Shown piece after piece: positions 31,535 through 41,562 of a DNA stretch of 64,000 nt; within the stretch, counting starts at the first letter, position 1, and each line of letters starts with the position of its first letter. The stretch comes from Algoriphagus sp. NG3. GTDB lineage: Bacteria > Bacteroidota > Bacteroidia > Cytophagales > Cyclobacteriaceae. The DNA is taken from NCBI RefSeq assembly GCF_034119865.1, contig NZ_CP139421.1, forward strand, positions 4,194,501-4,258,500, in the 5' to 3' direction. The notes under the pieces are model-generated. The model was not told where the DNA came from and made no database searches. It saw only the letters and a program-made list of their open reading frames with translations. Position numbers and translations under genes: made by a program.

Positions 31535-32554
31535 CTACAACAAATCAAACCCCTTTCGCATCGCAAAACTCTCTCTGATCCAGCTCGCAAGTCTTGCACT
31601 TTGCGCAAAATCCAAAGTTTGCTGTCCATCGGAATAAGCTTTCTCCGGTACTTCGTGTGATTCGTAGATAATCCCATCCGCGCCTGACATCACTCCTGCC
31701 AATGCCATCTGCGATACATACGCCCGAATGCCGATACCATGCGAAGGATCCACAATTACAGGTAAGTGGGATTTAGCCTTCAAAATCGGGATAGCGTTCA
31801 GATCCAATGTATTCCTTGATGCCCGTTCGTAAGTCCGGATCCCTCTTTCACAGAGGATCAGTTTCTCATTTCCTCCAGAGAACACATATTCTGCAGACTG
31901 CAAAAGCTCTTCAATCGTGCCGGAAATACCCCGCTTGATCATCACCGCTTTATCTACTTTCCCAAGCTCATCCAAGAGATTGAAATTCTGGGAATTCCTG
32001 GCTCCCACCTGATAAATATCCACATAAGGATACATTTCTTCGATCTGGGAAGTCTGCATCACTTCCGTAACGATCTTAATTCCGGCTTCGCTGGCGATAT
32101 CGTGCCATAGTTTCAGCCCCTCCAGCCCTAAACCACGGAATGCATACGGACTGCTTCTTGGCTTGAACACCCCTCCACGCATCATCTTGATATCATTCTC
32201 TACGCAGTGTGCCACCACAGCCCGGATTTGCTCTTCGGATTCTATGGAACAAGGCCCCGTGATCACAGCCATCTCTCCGTCTTTGATAAACACATTATCT
32301 CCCAAATCCACGGAAGTCGGCTTAACTTTCCACTTTTTGGACACCAATTTATACTCATCAGAGACAATATGGATATCAATGATACCGTCCATTTGACCGA
32401 TTTTTCGGATGTCAAAGTCCTTTTTACCAATGCCGATCAGGTAGTCTCCCAGTTGGGTTTTTACTTCGGTGGTTTTATAACCGATTCCATTGACCTCCTG
32501 GATCAATTTGTCCTTTTGGCTGTCGGAAATATCGGGTTGAAGCTGAATAATCAT
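31535..32554 (-). CDS. aroF: 3-deoxy-7-phosphoheptulonate synthase (DAHP synthase)
   Basis: 339 residues: an N-terminal ferredoxin-like regulatory domain (about 1-70, MIIQLQPDISDSQKD start) and a type I-beta TIM barrel with ITGPCSIESEEQ, MMRGGVFKPRSSPYAFRG, VGARNSQNFNLLDELG, KRGISGTIEE and VIVDPSHGIGIR. It joins phosphoenolpyruvate and erythrose 4-phosphate, the first step of the shikimate pathway. As last gene of the trp operon, a feedback- and attenuation-controlled entry step dedicated to Trp supply is likely. The 134-nt spacer to trpA is filled with degenerate simple-repeat phrases (GTCCACTGTCAACAGTCC). Confidence 0.95.
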   Translation of the reverse strand: MIIQLQPDISDSQKDKLIQEVNGIGYKTTEVKTQLGDYLIGIGKKDFDIRKIGQMDGIIDIHIVSDEYKLVSKKWKVKPTSVDLGDNVFIKDGEMAVITGPCSIESEEQIRAVVAHCVENDIKMMRGGVFKPRSSPYAFRGLGLEGLKLWHDIASEAGIKIVTEVMQTSQIEEMYPYVDIYQVGARNSQNFNLLDELGKVDKAVMIKRGISGTIEELLQSAEYVFSGGNEKLILCERGIRTYERASRNTLDLNAIPILKAKSHLPVIVDPSHGIGIRAYVSQMALAGVMSGADGIIYESHEVPEKAYSDGQQTLDFAQSARLASWIRESFAMRKGFDLL

Positions 32555-32688
32555 TTGAAGTACGAATTATGATTTTTGATTGTAGAATTAAAGGTGTCCA
32601 CTGTCAACAGTCCATGGTCCACAGTCATGGGAAGAAAATTTCAATGTTCTCGGGACTTGCTGTCGTCTGTGGACGGTGGGCAGTTGAC

Positions 32689-33465
32689 TCACCCACTGAC
32701 AACTTTTGTAAGGTACTCTTGAATATCCGAACTGAGATTCTTCGAATCTTTTACTGTCTTGATAAAAGCTGACCCTATGATCGCACCCTGACTATATTCT
32801 GATGCTTTGGCGAAGGTTTCTGAATCAGAAATCCCAAAACCAATCAACCTGGGATTCTTCAGGTTCATGGCTTTAACCCGCTCAAAATAAGCTACCTGCT
32901 CATCACTAATTCCGGCCTTCGCTCCCGTGATGCTATGGGAGGAAACCATATAGATAAAGCCATTGGTGTTTTCGTCAATTTCCCGGATACGCTTTTCGGA
33001 AGTTTGAGGAGAGATCAAAAAGGTATTCACCAAGCCATATTCCTCAAAAAGCTCCTTATAATCATCAATAAATTGCTGCATAGGAAGATCCGGAAGAATC
33101 AATCCATCCACGCCCACTTCCTTGCACTTTTTGCAAAATGCTTCCATGCCGTACTGCATGATAGGATTGAGATAGCCCATCATCACTACAGGGATATGGA
33201 TTTTGGCACGAAAGCCTTTAAGTTGCTCAAAGATCTTTTTAAGGGAAATCCCATTTTCCAACGCAATCATATTGCTGTCCTGTATGGTAGGGCCATCAGC
33301 CACAGGATCGGAATAAGGCACACCGATTTCTATGATGTCTGCTCCTCCCGCTTGGATCGCTTCCATGATCTCCATGGTACTTTCCAATGCAGGGAAACCC
33401 GCTGTAAAATAAATGGAGAGAACGCGCTCCTTTTTGGTATTAAATAGTGTATGTATTCGGTTCAT
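32689..33465 (-). CDS. trpA: Tryptophan synthase alpha subunit
   Basis: 258 residues from the ATG at 33465 (MNRIHTLF); the frame upstream to 33489 starts with TTG and is rejected. Catalytic Glu in GGADIIEIGVPYSDPVADGPTIQ, second catalytic Asp in GVDGLILPDLPMQ, and the phosphate-binding VSSHSITGAK and GFGISDSE. It cleaves indole-3-glycerol phosphate to indole, channelled to TrpB. The gene order trpB-trpA is normal. Confidence 0.95.
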   Translation of the reverse strand: MNRIHTLFNTKKERVLSIYFTAGFPALESTMEIMEAIQAGGADIIEIGVPYSDPVADGPTIQDSNMIALENGISLKKIFEQLKGFRAKIHIPVVMMGYLNPIMQYGMEAFCKKCKEVGVDGLILPDLPMQQFIDDYKELFEEYGLVNTFLISPQTSEKRIREIDENTNGFIYMVSSHSITGAKAGISDEQVAYFERVKAMNLKNPRLIGFGISDSETFAKASEYSQGAIIGSAFIKTVKDSKNLSSDIQEYLTKVVSG

Positions 33466-33606
33466 TTTTTCGGTATTGAAAAATTGCAAAATTGAAAGAT
33501 TGGAAAATTGGTTGGAAGGCAGGGGTGCTTCATTATTCGAAATTCTTTATTTAAATGGTCAATTCTGGAAAAACAGACTGGAGCTACAAAAGACTGCGTC
33601 AATCGT

Positions 33607-33648
33607 ACTTCCTACTTCTCACTTCCTACTTCTCACTTCGTACTTCCT
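33607..33648. repeat. Tandem 14-bp repeat between trpB and trpA
   Basis: Two exact copies of ACTTCCTACTTCTC (33607-33634) and one degenerate copy (33635-33648), running up to the trpB stop. The neighbouring spacer (33490-33606) holds similar low-complexity sequence and no gene. Confidence 0.8.
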
Positions 33649-34826
33649 CAATATCCGCCCCACTTAATATAAGTCTCCAGATCCTTGTCTCCTCTTCCTG
33701 AAAGGTTCACAACTATCACATCATCTTTGGAATACTCAATCATGTTCAAAGCATACAATGCATGGGCAGATTCTATCGCAGGAATTATCCCCTCCAGCTT
33801 GCTCAATTCCACTCCAGCTGCCATAGCATCCTTATCATCTACAGCTACAAATTCACCCCTTCCCACATCAAATAAATGGGCGTGAACTGGGCCTATCCCC
33901 GGGTAATCCAATCCCGCAGAAATGGAATGAGGCTCGACTACCTGTCCGTCCTCAGTCTGCATCAGGATTGTTTTCGAACCATGCAAAATCCCCGGAGTTC
34001 CTTTCGCAGTAGTTGCGGCGGTTTTCCCGGAATTTATCCCTAATCCTCCTGCTTCAGCAGCTACCAGGCGGACTTTTGGGGTATTGTAATAATGATAAAA
34101 TGCTCCTGCAGCATTGGAACCTCCTCCCACACAGGCGATGACGATATCTGGATTTTCTCTTCCTTCTTTTTCATTCAACTGCCATTTGATCTCCTCAGAG
34201 ATCACAGACTGAAACCTGGCAACCATCTCTGGATATGGATGTGGCCCGACCACCGACCCGATGATGTAATGCGTATCCACAGGGTTATTGATCCAGGCAC
34301 GCATGGCTTCGTTGGTAGCATCTTTCAGTGTTTTCGAACCTGATGTAGCAGGGACTACTGTCGCACCTAAGATCTTCATGCGTTCTACGTTCGGATGCTG
34401 CCGGGCGATGTCTATTTCCCCCATGTAAACCGTACACTCCATTCCCATCAGTGCACAAACTGTCGCAGTAGCCACCCCATGTTGTCCAGCTCCTGTTTCG
34501 GCAATAATCCGCTTTTTCCCAAGCTTCTTTGCCAAGATGATCTGACCAATAGTATTGTTCACTTTATGAGCACCTGTATGACAGAGATCCTCACGCTTCA
34601 GGTAAATTTTAGCGCCATACTTTTCAGAAAGTCGGGAAGCAAAATAGAGAGGGGTTGGACGACCTACATAGTCCTTAAGCAATCCTCTGAATTCATCCTG
34701 AAACTCCTTAGAAGCCATGATTGACTCGTAATTCTCTTTCAGTTCCTCGACATTCGGATGCAGCATCTCAGGGATGTAAGCGCCACCAAATTTGCCGTAA
34801 AATCCTTTTTCATCTACTTTGATCAT
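33648..34826 (-). CDS. trpB: Tryptophan synthase beta subunit
   Basis: 392 residues from the ATG at 34826 ([20 protein letters not shown], the usual N-terminus); an ATG at 34856 adds ten unlikely residues. The pyridoxal-phosphate Lys is in [18 protein letters not shown], the catalytic Glu in [13 protein letters not shown], and the phosphate loop is [10 protein letters not shown]. It condenses indole with serine to tryptophan. The spacer to trpF is short. Confidence 0.95.
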
Positions 34827-34873
34827 ATATTTTTTAGTTGATGGTTGATAGGCCATGGCATCTCAACCTAATT

Positions 34874-35500
34874 CTAACTCAACAATTTATCTTTAAATCT
34901 TTTCAGCTTTTCAATGTTCTTCATTCCAGGAGCATCTTCGAATTTCGAATTCAAATCGATTCCTTTAACCAAAGGAGAATTTTCCGCAAATCGCAGTAGC
35001 TCTTCAGCAGAATCCTCATCAATGCCCCCACTTAAAAGAAACGGGACTTCAAATGGATAATTTGCCAGAATCTGCCAGTTAAATTTCTCTCCAGAGCCCC
35101 CATGGTGTTTGGTAGCAGTATCAAAAAGAAAACAATCTACCAACCCCAGATATTCATGCAAATCATCCCAATCAACAGAATCTCCCACTGATACTACTTT
35201 CCAAAGTTCTTTATCCGTTTTTAGCTTCAGTTCGCGGACGTAATCCGGACTTTCGCTCCCATGCAGCTGTACTGCCGAAAGGGCAAAGCGATCAATTTTG
35301 TCAAGTACATTTGCTATTCCCTCATTCACAAACACCCCTACCTTTGGCTGTGGGATTTTAGCTATTTCCACTGCCTTTTCCTCTGTGACAAAGCGTGGAG
35401 ATTTGGCGTAAAAAATCAATCCCATCCAGTCTGGATGAATGACTTTTTCCAATTCCTCAATATTCTCAGGATCGCGCATCCCACAGACTTTGATTTGCAT
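34874..35500 (-). CDS. trpF: Phosphoribosylanthranilate isomerase
   Basis: 208 residues from the ATG at 35500 (MQIKVCGMRDPENI), the standard start; the frame upstream to 35554 is spacer. KVCGM carries the general-base Cys; VQLHGSE, DTATKHHGGSGEKFNW (general-acid Asp), LSGGIDEDSAEEL and KGIDLNSKFE follow. Third enzymatic step of Trp synthesis from anthranilate. TrpF is a separate protein here, not fused to TrpC. Confidence 0.95.
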   Translation of the reverse strand: MQIKVCGMRDPENIEELEKVIHPDWMGLIFYAKSPRFVTEEKAVEIAKIPQPKVGVFVNEGIANVLDKIDRFALSAVQLHGSESPDYVRELKLKTDKELWKVVSVGDSVDWDDLHEYLGLVDCFLFDTATKHHGGSGEKFNWQILANYPFEVPFLLSGGIDEDSAEELLRFAENSPLVKGIDLNSKFEDAPGMKNIEKLKRFKDKLLS

Positions 35501-35606
35501 CTGCTTAGTTTTATTTTCAAAGGTTAGATCGAATCTCGCATTATTGATAGTCAACCTGCTATTTGTCTTTATTTCACATGCCTGCCTCAGGCTGGCTCAA
35601 TTTCCA

Positions 35607-36428
35607 TTAGGCCTTATCCAATGCTGTTTCTTTGGCAAGCAGCTTTTTGTACTCTTTGATGAATGTGTATGCGGCTTGTTCTGGCCGGGCGGATTTCATG
35701 AAGTTTTCCCCGATCAGGAATCCATCAAATCCTGCGGATTTCAACTCCACCAGAGTTTCCGGTTTGGAAATTCCACTTTCTGATATTTTCAAGAAGGAGG
35801 AAGGAATCCTGCTCACCAGCTCCAAGGAAGTATCTAAAGAGACCTCGAATGTTTTCAGGTTCCGGTTGTTTACCCCCACCAGATCCAGGTCATCACAGAG
35901 ACTACGGTCAAGCTCCTCACCATCATGCACTTCCATCAAGACTTCGAGTCCCAGGCTTTTGGCGAATGCGGCAAGTTCTTTGAGCCTAGCTGGCTCCAAT
36001 GCTGCAGCGATCAATAGAATACAGTCCGCACCGATGGATTTTGCTTCTAATATCTGATACTCATCTACCACAAAATCCTTTCTGAGGATAGGGCAATAGT
36101 TATATTTCCGGGCGGACTTGAGATCCTCATTGGCACCGCCAAAGAAATCTTTATCAGTCAAAATAGATAAAGCCGAGGCTCCAGCCTGCATATATCCAAT
36201 ACTTACACTTTCCACCGATGCAGTCCCATTGATCCATCCTTTAGAAGGAGACTTACGCTTAAACTCCGAGATGATTCCCGACTTGTCAGGATTAGTCACA
36301 TAGGACTTCATAGACACCACTTTGCTTTCAAAGTAGATGCTTTGCTCGAGTAACTTCACTGGCACCAAGCTGCTTTTCTCAGCCACTTCAGCATGTTTCT
36401 GAGCAATGATTCTATCTAAAATATTCAT
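35607..36428 (-). CDS. trpC: Indole-3-glycerol phosphate synthase
   Basis: 273 residues from the ATG at 36428, 3 nt after the trpD stop; the longer frame starts with a TTG at 36434. The TIM barrel motifs are ISEFKRKSPSKGWI, ALSILTDKDFFGGANED, ILRKDFVVDEYQI, LMEVHDGEEL, VGVNNRNLKTFEV, ISESGISKPE and GFLIGENFMKS, with the catalytic Lys and Glu present. It closes the indole ring. A 106-nt spacer separates it from trpF. Confidence 0.95.
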   Translation of the reverse strand: MNILDRIIAQKHAEVAEKSSLVPVKLLEQSIYFESKVVSMKSYVTNPDKSGIISEFKRKSPSKGWINGTASVESVSIGYMQAGASALSILTDKDFFGGANEDLKSARKYNYCPILRKDFVVDEYQILEAKSIGADCILLIAAALEPARLKELAAFAKSLGLEVLMEVHDGEELDRSLCDDLDLVGVNNRNLKTFEVSLDTSLELVSRIPSSFLKISESGISKPETLVELKSAGFDGFLIGENFMKSARPEQAAYTFIKEYKKLLAKETALDKA

Positions 36429-36430
36429 AA

Positions 36431-37441
36431 TCAATTAAGTGAAACTGTTGTTTTAGGGTTTACCAGCCCATTGAATACTTTCAGTGCTTTCTTACTTAGC
36501 AAAACCTCCTCTGCCAAGGCCACTGCATCAGGGAAACCCAAGCCCTCTCCGGCAGTAACGAGTGCAGCAGCAGAATTGGCTATGACCACTTCATTTTGTT
36601 GTTTGCTGCCTTTCCCCTTCAAAATATTCTCAAAAATCTTTGCAGAATCCTGGATGGTCTGCCCTCCTTGGATCGAATTAGCTGCTAGCCTTGACAGTCC
36701 TATATTTTCTGGACTGAAAACTTTTTCCCCGGAATTAGAAATCATTTTGAAATCCCCAGTAAGAGAAATCTCATCGTATCCATCTAAGGAATGGAGAATC
36801 GAAAATCTTCCTGGCATATCCTGATACAGGTAGCCATACAGGCGGGCCAACTCAAGACTAAAGACACCCACCAATTGTTTTTGCGGAAAACTAGGATTGA
36901 CCATAGGGCCGAGCATATTGAAAAAAGTTTTTACCCCAAGGTCTTTCCTGATCGGCCCCACATGCTTCATTGCAGGATGGAATAGCGGTGCGTGAAGGAA
37001 ACAAATCCCTGCGTCGTCCAGGCTTCTTCTGATTTCATCCATATCATTGGTGAATTCATAGCCAAAATAGGCAAGCAAATTAGATGATCCGCAAATAGAG
37101 GAGACGCCGTTATTGCCGTGTTTAGCTACATTTTGACCAGCTCCTGCCACCACAAAGGATGAAAGTGTGGAAATATTGAAAGTATCTTTACCGTCACCGC
37201 CTGTACCACAGAGATCCATGGCGTCATATTCGGCTATTTCTACCGGAATGCAGCGCTCAAGCATTGCCTCACGGAAGCCAGACAGCTCTTCTACGGTAAT
37301 ACTACGCATCAGATATACCGTCATAAATGCAGCGATCTGGCTCGTATTGTAATTTCCGGCTGTAATATTCTTTAGAACCTCCTTTGCATCTGCTCTGCTG
37401 AGTGTCCTGTGCTCGATGAGGTGATTGAGTATTTCTTTCAT
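36431..37441 (-). CDS. trpD: Anthranilate phosphoribosyltransferase
   Basis: 336 residues. MDLCGTGGDGKDTFNISTLSS binds the pyrophosphate of PRPP, NVAKHGNNGVSSICGSSNLL follows, and the family's FFNMLGPMVNPS and VFSLELARL blocks are intact. Transfers phosphoribose to anthranilate. Overlaps the trpC TTG frame but not the chosen trpC ATG. Confidence 0.95.
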   Translation of the reverse strand: MKEILNHLIEHRTLSRADAKEVLKNITAGNYNTSQIAAFMTVYLMRSITVEELSGFREAMLERCIPVEIAEYDAMDLCGTGGDGKDTFNISTLSSFVVAGAGQNVAKHGNNGVSSICGSSNLLAYFGYEFTNDMDEIRRSLDDAGICFLHAPLFHPAMKHVGPIRKDLGVKTFFNMLGPMVNPSFPQKQLVGVFSLELARLYGYLYQDMPGRFSILHSLDGYDEISLTGDFKMISNSGEKVFSPENIGLSRLAANSIQGGQTIQDSAKIFENILKGKGSKQQNEVVIANSAAALVTAGEGLGFPDAVALAEEVLLSKKALKVFNGLVNPKTTVSLN

Positions 37442-37478: not shown

Positions 37479-38045
37479 TTAACTTTCCATCCAGTTTTTG
37501 ATTATCTGCACACCGTTTTCGGTGAGGATACTTTCCGGATGAAACTGTACGCCCCGGACATCATATTTCTTGTGCCGAATCGCCATAATCTGATGATCAG
37601 GCGTTCGGGCGATTACTTCCAGATCCGGAGAAAGAGTTGCCTCATTAATTACCCACGAATGGTATCTACCTATACTAAACGTATCGGGCACTTCATCGAA
37701 AAGCAAATCGGACTCTGCCTTGACCACAGAGGCCACTCCGTGAAGTACTTCTGATAGATTAATCAAAGTACCTCCGAAGGCTTCCCCGATCGCCTGATGC
37801 CCCAGACAAACTCCAAGAATGGATTTTGTAGCAGCATATTTCTCTAACAGCGCTGGCATAATTCCGGCATCCTTAGGGACACCTGGGCCAGGGGAGAGGA
37901 TTATTTTATCATACTTCCCCACATCTTCCAGACTTATTTTGTCATTGCGAAAGACATCCATGCTTGCCCCATAACCTAATTGCCGGACGATATATACCAA
38001 GTTGTATGTGAAGGAGTCGTAATTATCGAGGACGAGTATTTTCAT
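37479..38045 (-). CDS. trpG: Anthranilate synthase glutaminase subunit
   Basis: 188 residues, class I amidotransferase: LDNYDSFTYNLV start, oxyanion loop LSPGPGVPKDAG, nucleophile Cys in ILGVCLGHQAIGEAFGG, and the His-Glu pair in GVQFHPESILT. It supplies ammonia from glutamine to TrpE. It could in principle also serve p-aminobenzoate synthesis, as in other bacteria. It is separated from trpE by an inserted S23-type gene. Confidence 0.94.
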   Translation of the reverse strand: MKILVLDNYDSFTYNLVYIVRQLGYGASMDVFRNDKISLEDVGKYDKIILSPGPGVPKDAGIMPALLEKYAATKSILGVCLGHQAIGEAFGGTLINLSEVLHGVASVVKAESDLLFDEVPDTFSIGRYHSWVINEATLSPDLEVIARTPDHQIMAIRHKKYDVRGVQFHPESILTENGVQIIKNWMES

Positions 38046-38146: not shown

Positions 38147-38521
38147 TCACGCTAAGTCTTTTTTGTTTTTTAGATAGTTTATTAAAGCTTTGATCTGTCG
38201 GGAAAGAACAATTAACTCTTCCCTTAAACTTAAATATGTTGTTTCTGATACTCTCCCCACTTTCACTAAAAGAGCTAATTGACTTCTTAACTCACCTGCC
38301 GAACCTTTTGCATACCCCAAAAATCTTATGAATTGAAGCCTATTATTGTATTCAAATCCTTCTGCGATATTGTTTGAAATGGATATTGCGGATCCAATCA
38401 ATTGATCTCTAGATTTATAGTCATTTTTAAGTGGTATTTGATCAGCTAAACTATAGATCTTAACCCCTATTTCAATTGCCTTTTGCCAAATGAGTAACTC
38501 TTCAAAACTGTTTACTTTCAT
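38147..38521 (-). CDS. Four-helix bundle protein (S23 / intervening-sequence family) inside the trp operon
   Basis: 124 residues from the ATG at 38521. The sequence has the family hallmarks: ELLIWQKAIEIGVKIYSLAD, IGSAISISNNIAEGFEY, FIRFLGYAKGSAGELRSQLALL and a final amphipathic helix RQIKALINYLKNKK. The family includes proteins encoded in 23S rRNA intervening sequences and the related Avd accessory protein of diversity-generating retroelements; no reverse transcriptase or template repeat is seen here. It has no known role in Trp synthesis and sits between trpE and trpG in the same direction. Both flanking spacers carry matching A/G-rich sequence in inverted orientation (38084-38107 and 38575-38598), consistent with insertion of a mobile unit. 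Confidence 0.85.
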   Translation of the reverse strand: MKVNSFEELLIWQKAIEIGVKIYSLADQIPLKNDYKSRDQLIGSAISISNNIAEGFEYNNRLQFIRFLGYAKGSAGELRSQLALLVKVGRVSETTYLSLREELIVLSRQIKALINYLKNKKDLA

Positions 38522-38599
38522 ATCCAAAGATTTATTTATCCCTATCTAGACTGCTCATCCCACCACCTTAGAACCTTCCCACTTTATAACCTTTAAAAC

Positions 38600-40012
38600 T
38601 CAAATCCCCTCCGCCGCTCTCAGTGCCACTCTCAACGCTTCCAGTTTATTCGCCACCTCTTGCAACTCTGACGGGATAGTGGATTTGGCTACTACCCCTG
38701 CTCCTGCCTGGAATCGGAGCTGATTGTTTTCAGACACAAATGACCTGATCAATATGGCATGGTTAAAATCACCATTAAATCCTAAATAGCCTATGGCACC
38801 ACCATAGAATTGCCTCGATACATTTTCCAATTCATCTATCAATTCCATAGCCCGATACTTGGGAGCACCGGAAAGGGTACCTGCAGGAAAGGTATCTGCT
38901 ACCAATTGAAGTGGATTTGTGTTATCCGGCAGTTCTCCAGTCACCTTAGATACCAAGTGGATCACATGGGAGTAGTATTGAATTTCCTTAAATACCTCCA
39001 CAGTAACTTTTTCAGATGACCTGCTTAGATCATTTCTAGCCAGATCCACGAGCATGACATGTTCTGAGTTTTCTTTGGGATCATCGTATAGTTTGCGGGC
39101 CAAGGCCGCATCTTCCTGGTCATTGCCTGTTCTCCTGAATGTACCGGCTATGGGATAGATGGTGGCTTTTTTATCCTTGACCACAATCTGCGCTTCCGGA
39201 GAGCTGCCAAAGACTTTAAACGAACCATAATCAAAATAGAAGAGATAGGGTGAAGGGTTTACAGAACGAAGTGCACGGTAGACATTAAATTCATCTCCTT
39301 TAAACCCAGTGCTGAACCTACGTGAAAGCACGATCTGGAACACATCACCCCGGAAGCAATGCTCCCTTCCCTGATTCAGAATCTTAAGAAATTCCTCGTC
39401 TGTGTAGTTGGATTCTTCCTCTCCCACCCGCTGAAACGTATAGCTGGGTATATTCTTATTGTTCAAAAGGCGCTCAATCTCCTCCATCTTCTCGCTGTTT
39501 TCAGCGCCAGCCACCCGGTGTTCCAATAGATGAAGTTCATTCTTATAGTGATCCACTACAATGACATTCTGGTATACAGAATACTGCATCGTAGGCACTT
39601 CAGTGGGCGCTGTATTTTGAAGTTGGATATCTTCGAAATACGCCACTGTATCGTACTGGATATAGCCAAAAAGACCGTTGGTGCTAAATTTAAAGTTGTC
39701 AGGGGCAACGTCAAATTTATTCCCGAAAGCTCTTAGGCACTGCATCAGTTTCTGGTCTGAGCTCACTTCATAACTTTCTTTTAGACCAGAAGGCAAGCTT
39801 TCCACCACCTTGCCTGCATTGAAGCTAAAGGTAGCCAGTGGATTGAAGCAGATGTATGAAAAACTATTTTCCTGCCCATGATAATCAGAGCTTTCCAGCA
39901 AAATCGGATTGGCAAATCGATCCCTGATCTGCAGGTAAATACTCACCGGAGTAATCGTATCCGCAAGTCTTTTTCGGTACGTAGTGAGGATGGGAAATTT
40001 AATTTGAGTCAT
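38600..40012 (-). CDS. trpE: Anthranilate synthase component I
   Basis: 470 residues from the ATG at 40012 (MTQIKFPI); another ATG lies at 40030. The longest frame runs to a TTG at 40078 through the attenuator hairpin and cannot be right. The Trp feedback-binding LLES motif is at about residue 37. Chorismate-binding core: FQIVLSRRFS, FGSSPEAQIVVKD, PIAGTFRRTG, LVDLARNDL, VTGELPDNTNPLQL, TFPAGTLSGAPKYRAMELID and FQAGAGVVAKS. With TrpG it converts chorismate to anthranilate. First structural gene of the operon, controlled by the upstream attenuator and by Trp feedback. Confidence 0.95.
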   Translation of the reverse strand: MTQIKFPILTTYRKRLADTITPVSIYLQIRDRFANPILLESSDYHGQENSFSYICFNPLATFSFNAGKVVESLPSGLKESYEVSSDQKLMQCLRAFGNKFDVAPDNFKFSTNGLFGYIQYDTVAYFEDIQLQNTAPTEVPTMQYSVYQNVIVVDHYKNELHLLEHRVAGAENSEKMEEIERLLNNKNIPSYTFQRVGEEESNYTDEEFLKILNQGREHCFRGDVFQIVLSRRFSTGFKGDEFNVYRALRSVNPSPYLFYFDYGSFKVFGSSPEAQIVVKDKKATIYPIAGTFRRTGNDQEDAALARKLYDDPKENSEHVMLVDLARNDLSRSSEKVTVEVFKEIQYYSHVIHLVSKVTGELPDNTNPLQLVADTFPAGTLSGAPKYRAMELIDELENVSRQFYGGAIGYLGFNGDFNHAILIRSFVSENNQLRFQAGAGVVAKSTIPSELQEVANKLEALRVALRAAEGI

Positions 40013-40030
40013 TCGTGGTTGATTTTGCAT

Positions 40031-40064
40031 GAAAAAAGGCTTACCGGAAATCCAGTAAGCCTTT
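40031..40064 (-). terminator. Attenuator terminator of the trp leader (3:4 hairpin)
   Basis: Minus strand AAAGGCTTAC and GTAAGCCTTT form a 10-bp stem around an 11-nt loop (TGGATTTCCG), then six T. It lies directly before the trpE start region and after the leader peptide gene. A terminator here, upstream of the first structural gene, is the mark of attenuation. Confidence 0.9.
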
Positions 40065-40109
40065 GCTATGTGTAACACAAAATAGTACGCAGGGGCTTGC
40101 TAAACTTCC
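40046..40109 (-). promoter_or_regulatory. trp antiterminator (2:3 pairing)
   Basis: Region 2, GGAAGTTTAGCAAGCC (40094-40109), pairs with region 3, GGCTTACTGGATTTCC (40046-40061): 16 positions with three G-T pairs and one mismatch. Region 3 also contains the left arm of the terminator, so the two structures exclude each other. Region 2 overlaps the leader-peptide stop codon, so a ribosome finishing the peptide would cover it. CTTCC just upstream (region 1) can pair with GGAAG of region 2. Confidence 0.82.
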
Positions 40110-40162
40110 GTTTGGGAAGAGTAAGAATGCCACCACCAGTATTTATTTGCGTTTGTTTTCAT
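40100..40162 (-). CDS. trpL: trp leader peptide with three consecutive Trp codons
   Basis: A 20-codon frame read as MKTNANKYWWWHSYSSQTEV, then TAG. The three TGG codons are at 40130-40138. The predicted transcription start lies only a few bases upstream of the ATG. A ribosome stalled at the Trp codons leaves region 2 (40094-40109) free for the antiterminator; a ribosome that reaches the stop covers it and lets the terminator form. The frame is too short for ordinary gene calling. Confidence 0.9.
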   Translation of the reverse strand: MKTNANKYWWWHSYSSQTEV

Positions 40163-40173
40163 AAGAATGAGGG

Positions 40174-40203
40174 CAAATTTAGGAAGGGATTGTTAAGTAC
40201 AAA
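40174..40203 (-). promoter_or_regulatory. Promoter of the trp operon
   Basis: Minus strand TTTG (40200-40203), 18 nt, TAAATTTG (40174-40181). Transcription would start near 40169, about 7 nt before the trpL ATG. Confidence 0.75.
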
Positions 40204-40556
40204 GCATAGAAAGGATTTTTTTTGAAAAAGTCTAAAATATTTTTTCTCGCAAAACGGAATGCCGGCCATCCCTGGAAAAACAAAATGAGATTAATTAACA
40301 CCACTCAAACAGCAATATCTTCTTTGCCCTAAAGCTGTCTAACTTATCTGCTGGAGCCCTCAGCCTGTTTTCTCCGATTTAAAATACATGAATAACTATT
40401 TACTTCTGGAAGAGACCTGCTAGATCTAAAGTGAAAGCAATTCCCATCTGATCTCAAAATGCCTTATATTCTTTAGGTTAACCTATTTTTTTCATCAACA
40501 GAAGTCCAAACTAATTTTTCGTTAAGTCGTTGATACGAAAAACAATACCCCACGCT
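40204..40556. other. Divergent intergenic region with a 12-bp palindrome
   Basis: A/T-rich, no gene seen. It holds a perfect palindrome TAGGTTAACCTA at 40474-40485, about 70 nt before the next plus-strand gene, which may be an operator. No convincing TAnnTTTG box was found for that gene. Confidence 0.4.
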
Positions 40557-41114
40557 ATGAAACGGATCAGCTCTCTTTTAACAATGATTATGCTGGCAGG
40601 TATTTGCACAGCCTATGCGCAACAAACTTCAGAATGGAAATCCCCAATGCATGAAGTACAGTTCATATCCGAATCCGGTGATGATGTGAAAATGGAAGTG
40701 GACAAGGGGTATAAATATGCCAATTTGGAATTTGAAGGAAGAAAGTTCCACCTATTCTATGACCGGGATATGAACCAGATAAAAAAGGCAAGGATAGTAG
40801 AACCTGAAACCAAATTAGAAATTGCCCGTGGCAGAGGCAGTTATTTTTGGGGATCTGCGCGCTTTGAATTTGTAGATGGGGACATTGTAAAAGTGAAAAG
40901 AAAAAGGAATGCCAATGGATACGAGATCACAGGCCCATCCGGACCACTTTTCATAGTGGAGAACCATGCCATCACTCCCGTTAAGACCTACAATGAAAAA
41001 GAGTTTATGACCCAAGCATTTTATGTATTCGAGCGGATCAAATTAACCCAAAACAGCCCTTCAGACGTAATGATATTTTACTCAAATTATTATCAAACCA
41101 GTTCAAATAAGTAG
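40557..41114 (+). CDS. Exported protein of unknown function
   Basis: 185 residues from the ATG at 40557; the longest frame starts at a TTG at 40530. Signal peptide MKRISSLLTM..., cut near AYAQ. The mature part is small, charged and strand-rich (EFEGRKFHLFYDRDMNQIKKARIVEPETK), with SYFWGSARFEF in the middle. No recognised domain. Its stop is 12 nt before the next small gene, so the two may form an operon. Confidence 0.7.
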   Translation: MKRISSLLTMIMLAGICTAYAQQTSEWKSPMHEVQFISESGDDVKMEVDKGYKYANLEFEGRKFHLFYDRDMNQIKKARIVEPETKLEIARGRGSYFWGSARFEFVDGDIVKVKRKRNANGYEITGPSGPLFIVENHAITPVKTYNEKEFMTQAFYVFERIKLTQNSPSDVMIFYSNYYQTSSNK

Positions 41115-41443: not shown

Positions 41444-41473
41444 TTGCAAACATTGATTTTCTACTTACCTTTG
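41444..41473 (+). promoter_or_regulatory. Promoter of the SRP RNA gene
   Basis: TTG (41444-41446), 19 nt, TACCTTTG (41466-41473), a full match to the Bacteroidota pattern, 4 nt before the predicted 5' end of the RNA. Confidence 0.85.
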
Positions 41474-41477
41474 CACC

Positions 41478-41562
41478 GGCGGCACGACCAGCTCCTGCTG
41501 AATCCCCCAGGTCCGGAAGGAAGCAAGGGTAGGTGGTTGAGCGGTGCGATGCCGCTTCTTTT
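41478..41562 (+). ncRNA. ffs: 4.5S signal recognition particle RNA
   Basis: The invariant domain IV block AGGTCCGGAAGGAAGCA is at 41509-41525, with the GGAA tetraloop and the asymmetric loop that bind Ffh. The ends pair (GCGGCA with TGCCGC), with inner GACCA/TGGTT pairing, so the molecule is a single hairpin of about 80 nt. A T run (41557-41564) ends it. It guides membrane and secretory proteins to the translocon together with Ffh and FtsY, which are not in this window. No protein gene overlaps it on either strand. Confidence 0.94.

Follow-up and report, generated by a model that had tools for sequence, protein, structure and literature searches.

The tryptophan biosynthesis genes of this locus, together with the promoter and the putative attenuator that precede them, all lie on the minus strand of the window (the whole 64-kb stretch of DNA that was analysed, to which all coordinates refer). 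In the direction of transcription, the features are as follows.

40174..40203, minus strand: Bacteroidota-type promoter, with TTTG at 40203-40200, an 18-nt spacer and TAAATTTG at 40181-40174 (read directly)
40100..40162, minus strand: leader ORF MKTNANKYWWWHSYSSQTEV, 20 codons plus TAG, with its ATG at 40162 and its stop codon at 40102-40100
40130..40138, minus strand: three consecutive Trp codons, TGG TGG TGG (read directly), the predicted ribosome stall site
40105..40119, minus strand: local 1:2 hairpin, 40119-40115 (CUUCC) with 40109-40105 (GGAAG), sequestering region 2 (from covariation and folding)
40094..40109, minus strand: region 2, the antiterminator 5' arm, which holds the leader stop codon
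40046..40061, minus strand: region 3, the antiterminator 3' arm and also the 5' arm and loop of the terminator
40031..40064, minus strand: intrinsic terminator, a 13-pair hairpin (40064-40035) and a six-T run (40037-40032)
38600..40012, minus strand: trpE, anthranilate synthase component I (best NCBIfam match TIGR00564, 426.8 bits, below the cut-off of 517.7)
38147..38527, minus strand: four-helix-bundle protein gene between trpE and trpG (TIGR02436)
37479..38045, minus strand: trpG (TIGR00566, a subfamily model)
36431..37441, minus strand: trpD (NCBIfam)
35607..36434, minus strand: trpC (NCBIfam)
34874..35554, minus strand: trpF (NCBIfam; all model matches below their cut-offs)
33648..34856, minus strand: trpB (NCBIfam)
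32689..33489, minus strand: trpA (NCBIfam)
31535..32554, minus strand: DAHP synthase, the probable last gene of the operon (TIGR01361)

The trpE gene probably begins at ATG 40012 and not at ATG 40030 beside the T run, from which the frame is also open; the former is preferred because an in-frame TAA lies between the two ATGs in the relative L003, and L009 and L011 lack an equivalent of the first. The order given by the earlier sequence-only reading, with the terminator before trpE, is right, but the gene probably starts at 40012 instead of 40030.

The DAHP synthase gene is followed by a terminator-like site (31524-31501, simple scan). Near-full-length homologues (54% identity or more) were found in 28 genomes, leaving out G001, in which the gene is split over two contigs; in 23 of the 28, the window's own genome included, trpE is followed within 9 kb by the gene on the same strand. 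The other five have the two genes on different contigs (G031, G028, G052), far apart (G039), or on opposite strands (G048), and twelve same-genus draft genomes of 2.2–2.8 Mb contain distant DAHP synthase matches only. DAHP synthase might instead form its own transcription unit. The gap between trpA and DAHP synthase contains a sigma-70-like match (32607-32579, 11 of 12 positions), which would fit a separate unit, but the region has fewer such matches than shuffled sequence (18 versus 23.3), Bacteroidota use a promoter type other than the sigma-70-like one, and no exact Bacteroidota promoter pattern occurs in the gap. No terminator was listed there by the simple scan, which also missed the attenuator's own. 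Control of the DAHP synthase gene by the attenuator is thus plausible from the gene arrangement. The 134-nt gap (32555-32688, minus strand) also shows, by eye, repeated GTGGAC/GTCCAC-like words, while a repeat search found none of at least 12 nt.

Upstream of trpE, the leader is the sole ATG-initiated ORF of 8–45 codons with three adjacent Trp codons (WWW) on either strand of the window, and when the 350 nt that lie upstream of 40030 were dinucleotide-shuffled 5,000 times, no WWW leader arose. The 20-codon leader with its three Trp codons had been described from the letters alone, and its coordinates are correct, as is the position of its TAG (40102-40100) inside region 2 (40109-40094). To look for a second Trp attenuator in the same genome (G000), we searched for ATGA-N5..35-TGGTGGTGG, a pattern that covers ORFs beginning with ATGA only. 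Of its 18 occurrences, five are in frame and open, namely the window leader and those at 233564, 1069429, 3884503, and 5314038; by eye, none of the latter four is followed by a hairpin with a T run in the 130 nt after the ORF, and a second attenuator was rejected on this basis. A covariance model built from Cyclobacteriaceae only (R1) likewise had, among the matches listed for this genome, one strong place (98.8 bits), the others being weak (30.3 and 28.8 bits) and taken as chance terminators.

The leader RNA folds with −41.8 kcal/mol, a value that none of 200 shuffles equalled (z −4.79). Its antiterminator, 40109-40094 with 40061-40046, is pairable at 15 of 16 positions, with three G-T pairs and one mismatch as previously counted, and the terminator at 40031-40064 was also confirmed by direct reading as a 13-pair hairpin with a T run. 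The 2:3 antiterminator and the 3:4 terminator share region 3 and are mutually exclusive. The simple terminator scan did not list the terminator (40064-40031), probably because three T belong to the stem and the tail is left with under five. The best 2:3 duplex (−13.1 kcal/mol) was matched in 11 of 100 spacer shuffles and so is not exceptional by itself; complementarity within the window sequence was rejected as proof, and a cross-clade permutation and modelled ribosome states were used instead (below).

About 20 nt separate the end of the terminator hairpin from the likely trpE start at 40012, close enough to ask if the element mainly controls trpE translation, by hiding or freeing the start region, in place of transcription. 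We consider this quite unlikely, as the T run at 40037-40032, typical of intrinsic termination, follows the hairpin in the window and also in nearly all of the relatives displayed.

Conservation of these elements was followed in two samples. The window's TrpE was searched for in 58 related genomes, giving 53 upstream regions (window included) from 52 genomes, with two from G020; the other six had weak TrpE-like matches or none. A second set consists of 80 loci, the best 80 of 584 TrpE matches in named contigs, from Algoriphagus, other Cyclobacteriaceae, Flammeovirgaceae-type MAGs, Hymenobacter and relatives, and Flavobacterium. Algoriphagus heads these matches, and the window's genome was accordingly taken as Algoriphagus-like. 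The two sets overlap, 13 of the 52 genome-set loci having a stretch identical to one in the second set. By tblastn, 12 of the 80 second-set loci (best 80 of 584) carry a relative of the four-helix-bundle protein beyond their trpE match.

Both a Trp-run leader and a terminator are found in each of the 36 trpE upstream regions from the genus (window included), 34 of which have WWW; none of these relatives has lost either the Trp codons or the terminator hairpin, a loss that would have spoken against an attenuator. More broadly, the combination of a terminator and a leader whose Trp codons are adjacent (or spaced as W-x-W) is present in 46 of the 53 genome-set regions (window included) and in 77 of the 80 second-set loci (best 80 of 584), 65 of which keep WWW. 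The expectation that a WWW leader precedes trpE in relatives is thus borne out in the genus and only in part beyond it: a recognisable Trp leader is absent from seven of the 16 order-level regions outside the genus (L047, L048, L049, L050, L054, L056, L060). As to the three second-set misses, L101 and L107 have, by eye, a TGG run and a hairpin with a T run with no in-frame ATG by our rule, and L140 is truncated at the start of its contig.

Leaving one outlier aside, the stop codon begins at positions ranging from ten nt ahead of region 2 to thirty nt beyond the start of that region. The distance from the last Trp codon to region 2, by contrast, is 17–22 nt in 106 of 123 loci. This spacing and the retention of WWW bear on the idea that the terminator is constitutive, or ends an upstream transcript, with the Trp-rich ORF being incidental. 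The terminator is indeed the most stable element in all modelled states of the full RNA, but an incidental ORF would be at odds with the retention of WWW, seen in 34 of the 36 regions from the genus and in 65 of the 80 second-set loci (best 80 of 584), and with a near-constant distance to region 2. Nor is there an evident upstream transcript to end, as the list of ORFs of at least 80 aa has no minus-strand ORF just upstream of the site and the next, 40530-41114, is on the plus strand. This idea is accordingly very improbable. Farther upstream, a Small SRP RNA (RF04183) is encoded at 41472-41562 on the plus strand, about 1.4 kb upstream of trpE; a Small SRP RNA upstream of trpE on the opposite strand was also seen in L061, L082, L094, L012, L029, and L039.

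Around the Trp run, the leader sequences differ widely among clades, for example MKTIANKYWWWHS..., MNNTWWWNNLRQTS, and MKKTIQIWWWLTYFF. This variation matters for the possibility that a protein senses Trp, or that free tryptophan is the signal, through TRAP-like binding or TnaC-like nascent-peptide arrest, and not tRNA charging. Nascent-peptide arrest would likewise require translated Trp codons, but stalling at codons fits such variable leaders better than an arrest peptide does. TRAP sites consist of GAG/UAG repeats, and no such array was seen by eye at the site. Sensing of either kind is hardly credible here.

The promoter TTTG-N18-TAAATTTG is present at 40203-40174 as had been described. 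Matches to TTTG-N17..21-TAnnTTTG number two in the window against 2.18 expected, so the motif was rejected as proof and its conservation alone is counted. In Cyclobacteriaceae, each of the 59 distinct sequences has TAnnTTTG no more than 60 nt ahead of its leader ATG, and so do 40 of 50 sequences from elsewhere. The gap between the two measures 11 nt in the window and 10–11 nt in 43 of the 59 Cyclobacteriaceae sequences; outside this family it is often longer, being 30 nt in nine of the 40 loci with the motif. Transcription is predicted to start a few nt past this promoter motif, so that only a few nt would precede the leader ATG, which would make the leader gene near-leaderless in Cyclobacteriaceae. 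No Shine-Dalgarno sequence was seen at the leader gene, and Bacteroidota mostly initiate without Shine-Dalgarno pairing. PMC9723704 gives Flavobacterium psychrophilum a median 5' UTR of 24 bp, with leaderless mRNAs at 5.5%.

Covariation was assessed in an alignment of 56 distinct Cyclobacteriaceae sequences (A1). In the terminator, 97.0% of cells are paired and four of 13 pairs have double-sided changes; the 11 double-sided cells compare with 1.8 in shuffles (0 of 500 as high) and 1–4 when the register is slid. The 1:2 hairpin is paired in 94.6% of cells, with double-sided changes in four of five pairs and 11 double-sided cells versus 3.7 in shuffles (0 of 500 as high); sliding it by −1 gives 13 such cells against 11 in register, but with 75.0% of cells paired against 94.6%. 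The 2:3 helix is paired in 80.6% of cells, versus 20–55% when slid, with double-sided changes in two of 15 pairs (2.2 in shuffles) and 14 double-sided cells against 11.1, a value reached by 58 of 500 shuffles. Compensatory changes, sought in regions 2, 3, and 4 to follow up the earlier reading, are therefore found for the terminator and the 1:2 hairpin, but the 2:3 helix has little covariation.

An alignment-free test, in which region 2 of 35 representatives was paired with its own and with others' region 3, bears on the same helix. The own-partner duplex energy is −12.40, compared with −9.78 (sd 0.42) for permuted partners, and none of 10,000 permutations was as low. Ranked among all 35 candidates, the own partner comes only ninth at the median; for the window it comes 13th, region 3 of 12 of the 34 other representatives fitting the window's region 2 better than the window's own does.

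Ribosome states were modelled with assumed footprint edges of 13 nt past the first A-site base. For the window transcript ended at region 3, the model gives a 2:3 probability of 0.99 with a ribosome on any of the Trp codons, which by geometry and folding under this footprint leaves region 2 free, and values of 0.71 for 1:2 and 0.28 for 2:3 with no ribosome; a ribosome at the stop codon is predicted to cover region 2. Folding in both states, suggested earlier as a check, gives this alternation in the model for the transcript ended at region 3. In 100 of 103 distinct sequences, stalling the modelled ribosome at Trp raises 2:3 pairing by more than 0.1 over the stop state, and in 95 it does so over the ribosome-free state; with the ribosome at the stop codon, this pairing falls below 0.1 in only 81 of the 103, the window having 0.14 by that measure. 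Each state is thermodynamically feasible. In the full-length RNA at equilibrium, the model has the terminator winning in every ribosome state, so the switch must be co-transcriptional. In E. coli, trp attenuation is decided during transcription.

We are therefore highly confident that this is a ribosome-mediated transcription attenuator of the classical trp type that controls the trp operon; conservation in 36 of 36 same-genus regions and modelled ribosome-dependent 2:3 pairing in 100 of 103 sequences give this interpretation, already proposed from the letters, its computational support. From these elements we infer translation of the leader, the transcript start site, termination in vivo, and a response to Trp, in the following way. 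RNA polymerase would start a few nt before the leader ATG, followed by a ribosome. When charged tRNA-Trp is scarce, the ribosome would stall on the Trp codons (40138-40130), allowing region 2 (40109-40094) to pair with region 3 (40061-40046) once the latter has been made; the terminator would then not form, and trpE and the downstream genes, probably including DAHP synthase, would be transcribed. When Trp is plentiful, the ribosome would reach the stop codon inside region 2 and cover this region, leaving region 3 to pair with region 4, and transcription would end at 40037-40031. If the leader is not translated, the 1:2 hairpin would tend to hold region 2, resulting in termination.

The E. coli trp leader has a Trp-run leader peptide, a stop codon in region 2, and a terminator before trpE. 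Its Rfam family (RF00513, Trp_leader) shares the four-region logic of the window attenuator, but the leader peptide and the promoter type of the latter differ, and few nt are predicted before its ATG. RF00513 has no match in 39980-40260 at E values up to 10. Weak RF00513 matches occur in the relatives L106 (40.3 bits, cut-off 41) and L099 (30.4 bits); the former, L106:1620-1717 (E 5.4e-05), is the upstream attenuator of a Bacteroidota genome.

A closer counterpart is RF01692 (Bacteroid-trp), listed in 2010 among cis-regulatory RNAs of Bacteroidetes (Weinberg et al., PMC2864571, Table 1) and described in Rfam as Bacteroidete tryptophan peptide leader RNA, with a curated cut-off of 49 bits. RF01692 and the window attenuator share the phylum, the place before trpE, and the order of parts. 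A scan of the window with Rfam 15 gave no gathering-level match at the attenuator; the best permissive match was RF01692, at 33.4 bits and thus below the cut-off of 49 (E 0.028 for a 281-base stretch). The alignment spans model positions 1–131, with the ATG, UGGUGGUGG, and the terminator start all in register, and the model as aligned ends within the terminator 5' arm. Among the 13 same-genus relatives in the genome set compared with RF01692, only L010 passes (50.3 bits; TrpE 95% identical), and L016 has no match even at E 0.1. The cut-off is also passed by L118 (Flavobacterium) and by L051. The latter (G020:C173) is a second trpE in a same-genus draft genome, 57% identical to the window's and with a Flavobacterium-type leader, and its contig is perhaps contamination.

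Across 296 genomes of the phylum, RF01692 matches 29 (27 over the cut-off) and none in the window's order; it also matches one of 14 control genomes, Bacteroides ihuae. The R1 model recovers 19 of the 29 RF01692 sites, in matching positions (compared by eye), and the two were therefore read as one family. R1 itself matches 80 of the 296 genomes, many of these matches being weak and possibly plain terminators; it was rejected as a phylum-wide counter for this reason and used only for its coincidence with RF01692 sites. By score, the window copy is outside RF01692, while by homology and predicted mechanism it is of that kind. It is a sub-threshold case of a known kind and not the first in the phylum. 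The sequence-only reading had left it undecided if this leader had been described: its kind has, as RF01692, whereas the window copy falls below that model's cut-off (33.4 versus 49 bits).

In the literature, PMC6414381 describes Bacteroid-Trp RNA as conserved before the trp operon of Flavobacterium psychrophilum, a species from a different order of the phylum than the window, and as structured like the E. coli leader. PMC9723704 gives strong indications of leader-peptide attenuation upstream of operons for amino-acid biosynthesis. Among the matches listed in the open-licence literature, none concerned a trp attenuator in Algoriphagus or Cyclobacteriaceae, and a search of PMC2965389 yielded no Bacteroidota passage.

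Two Trp-run leaders, each with its own terminator, occur in series before trpE in L102, L106, L114, and L161. The first three, from Fulvivirga marina, a Flammeovirgaceae MAG, and Rufibacter latericius, respectively, were found among 133 screened regions, with W codons at −286/−135 (L102), −375/−153 (L106), and −281/−123 (L114) from the trpE match. L161 is from a genome of the same family as the window, on the reverse strand, with two WWW leaders followed by trpE. Among the open-licence literature matches listed, none dealt with tandem trp attenuators.

These observations suggest, tentatively, that the phylum may have its own form of coupled attenuation, in which Cyclobacteriaceae combine a near-leaderless leader with a fixed ruler of about 19 nt from the stall site to region 2 and a freely moving stop codon, with tandem stacking elsewhere. 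If this somewhat doubtful hypothesis is correct, tandem attenuators in series would multiply the Trp response. The survey indicates that the public model underreports Bacteroid-trp-like attenuators in Cyclobacteriaceae and related families. It also adds a finer anatomy, consisting of the near-constant stall-to-region-2 spacing, the movable stop codon, and the conserved promoter, which aids annotation. The system offers a means to probe transcription-translation coupling in a phylum mostly lacking Shine-Dalgarno initiation, and the tandem versions are a natural test of attenuators in series.
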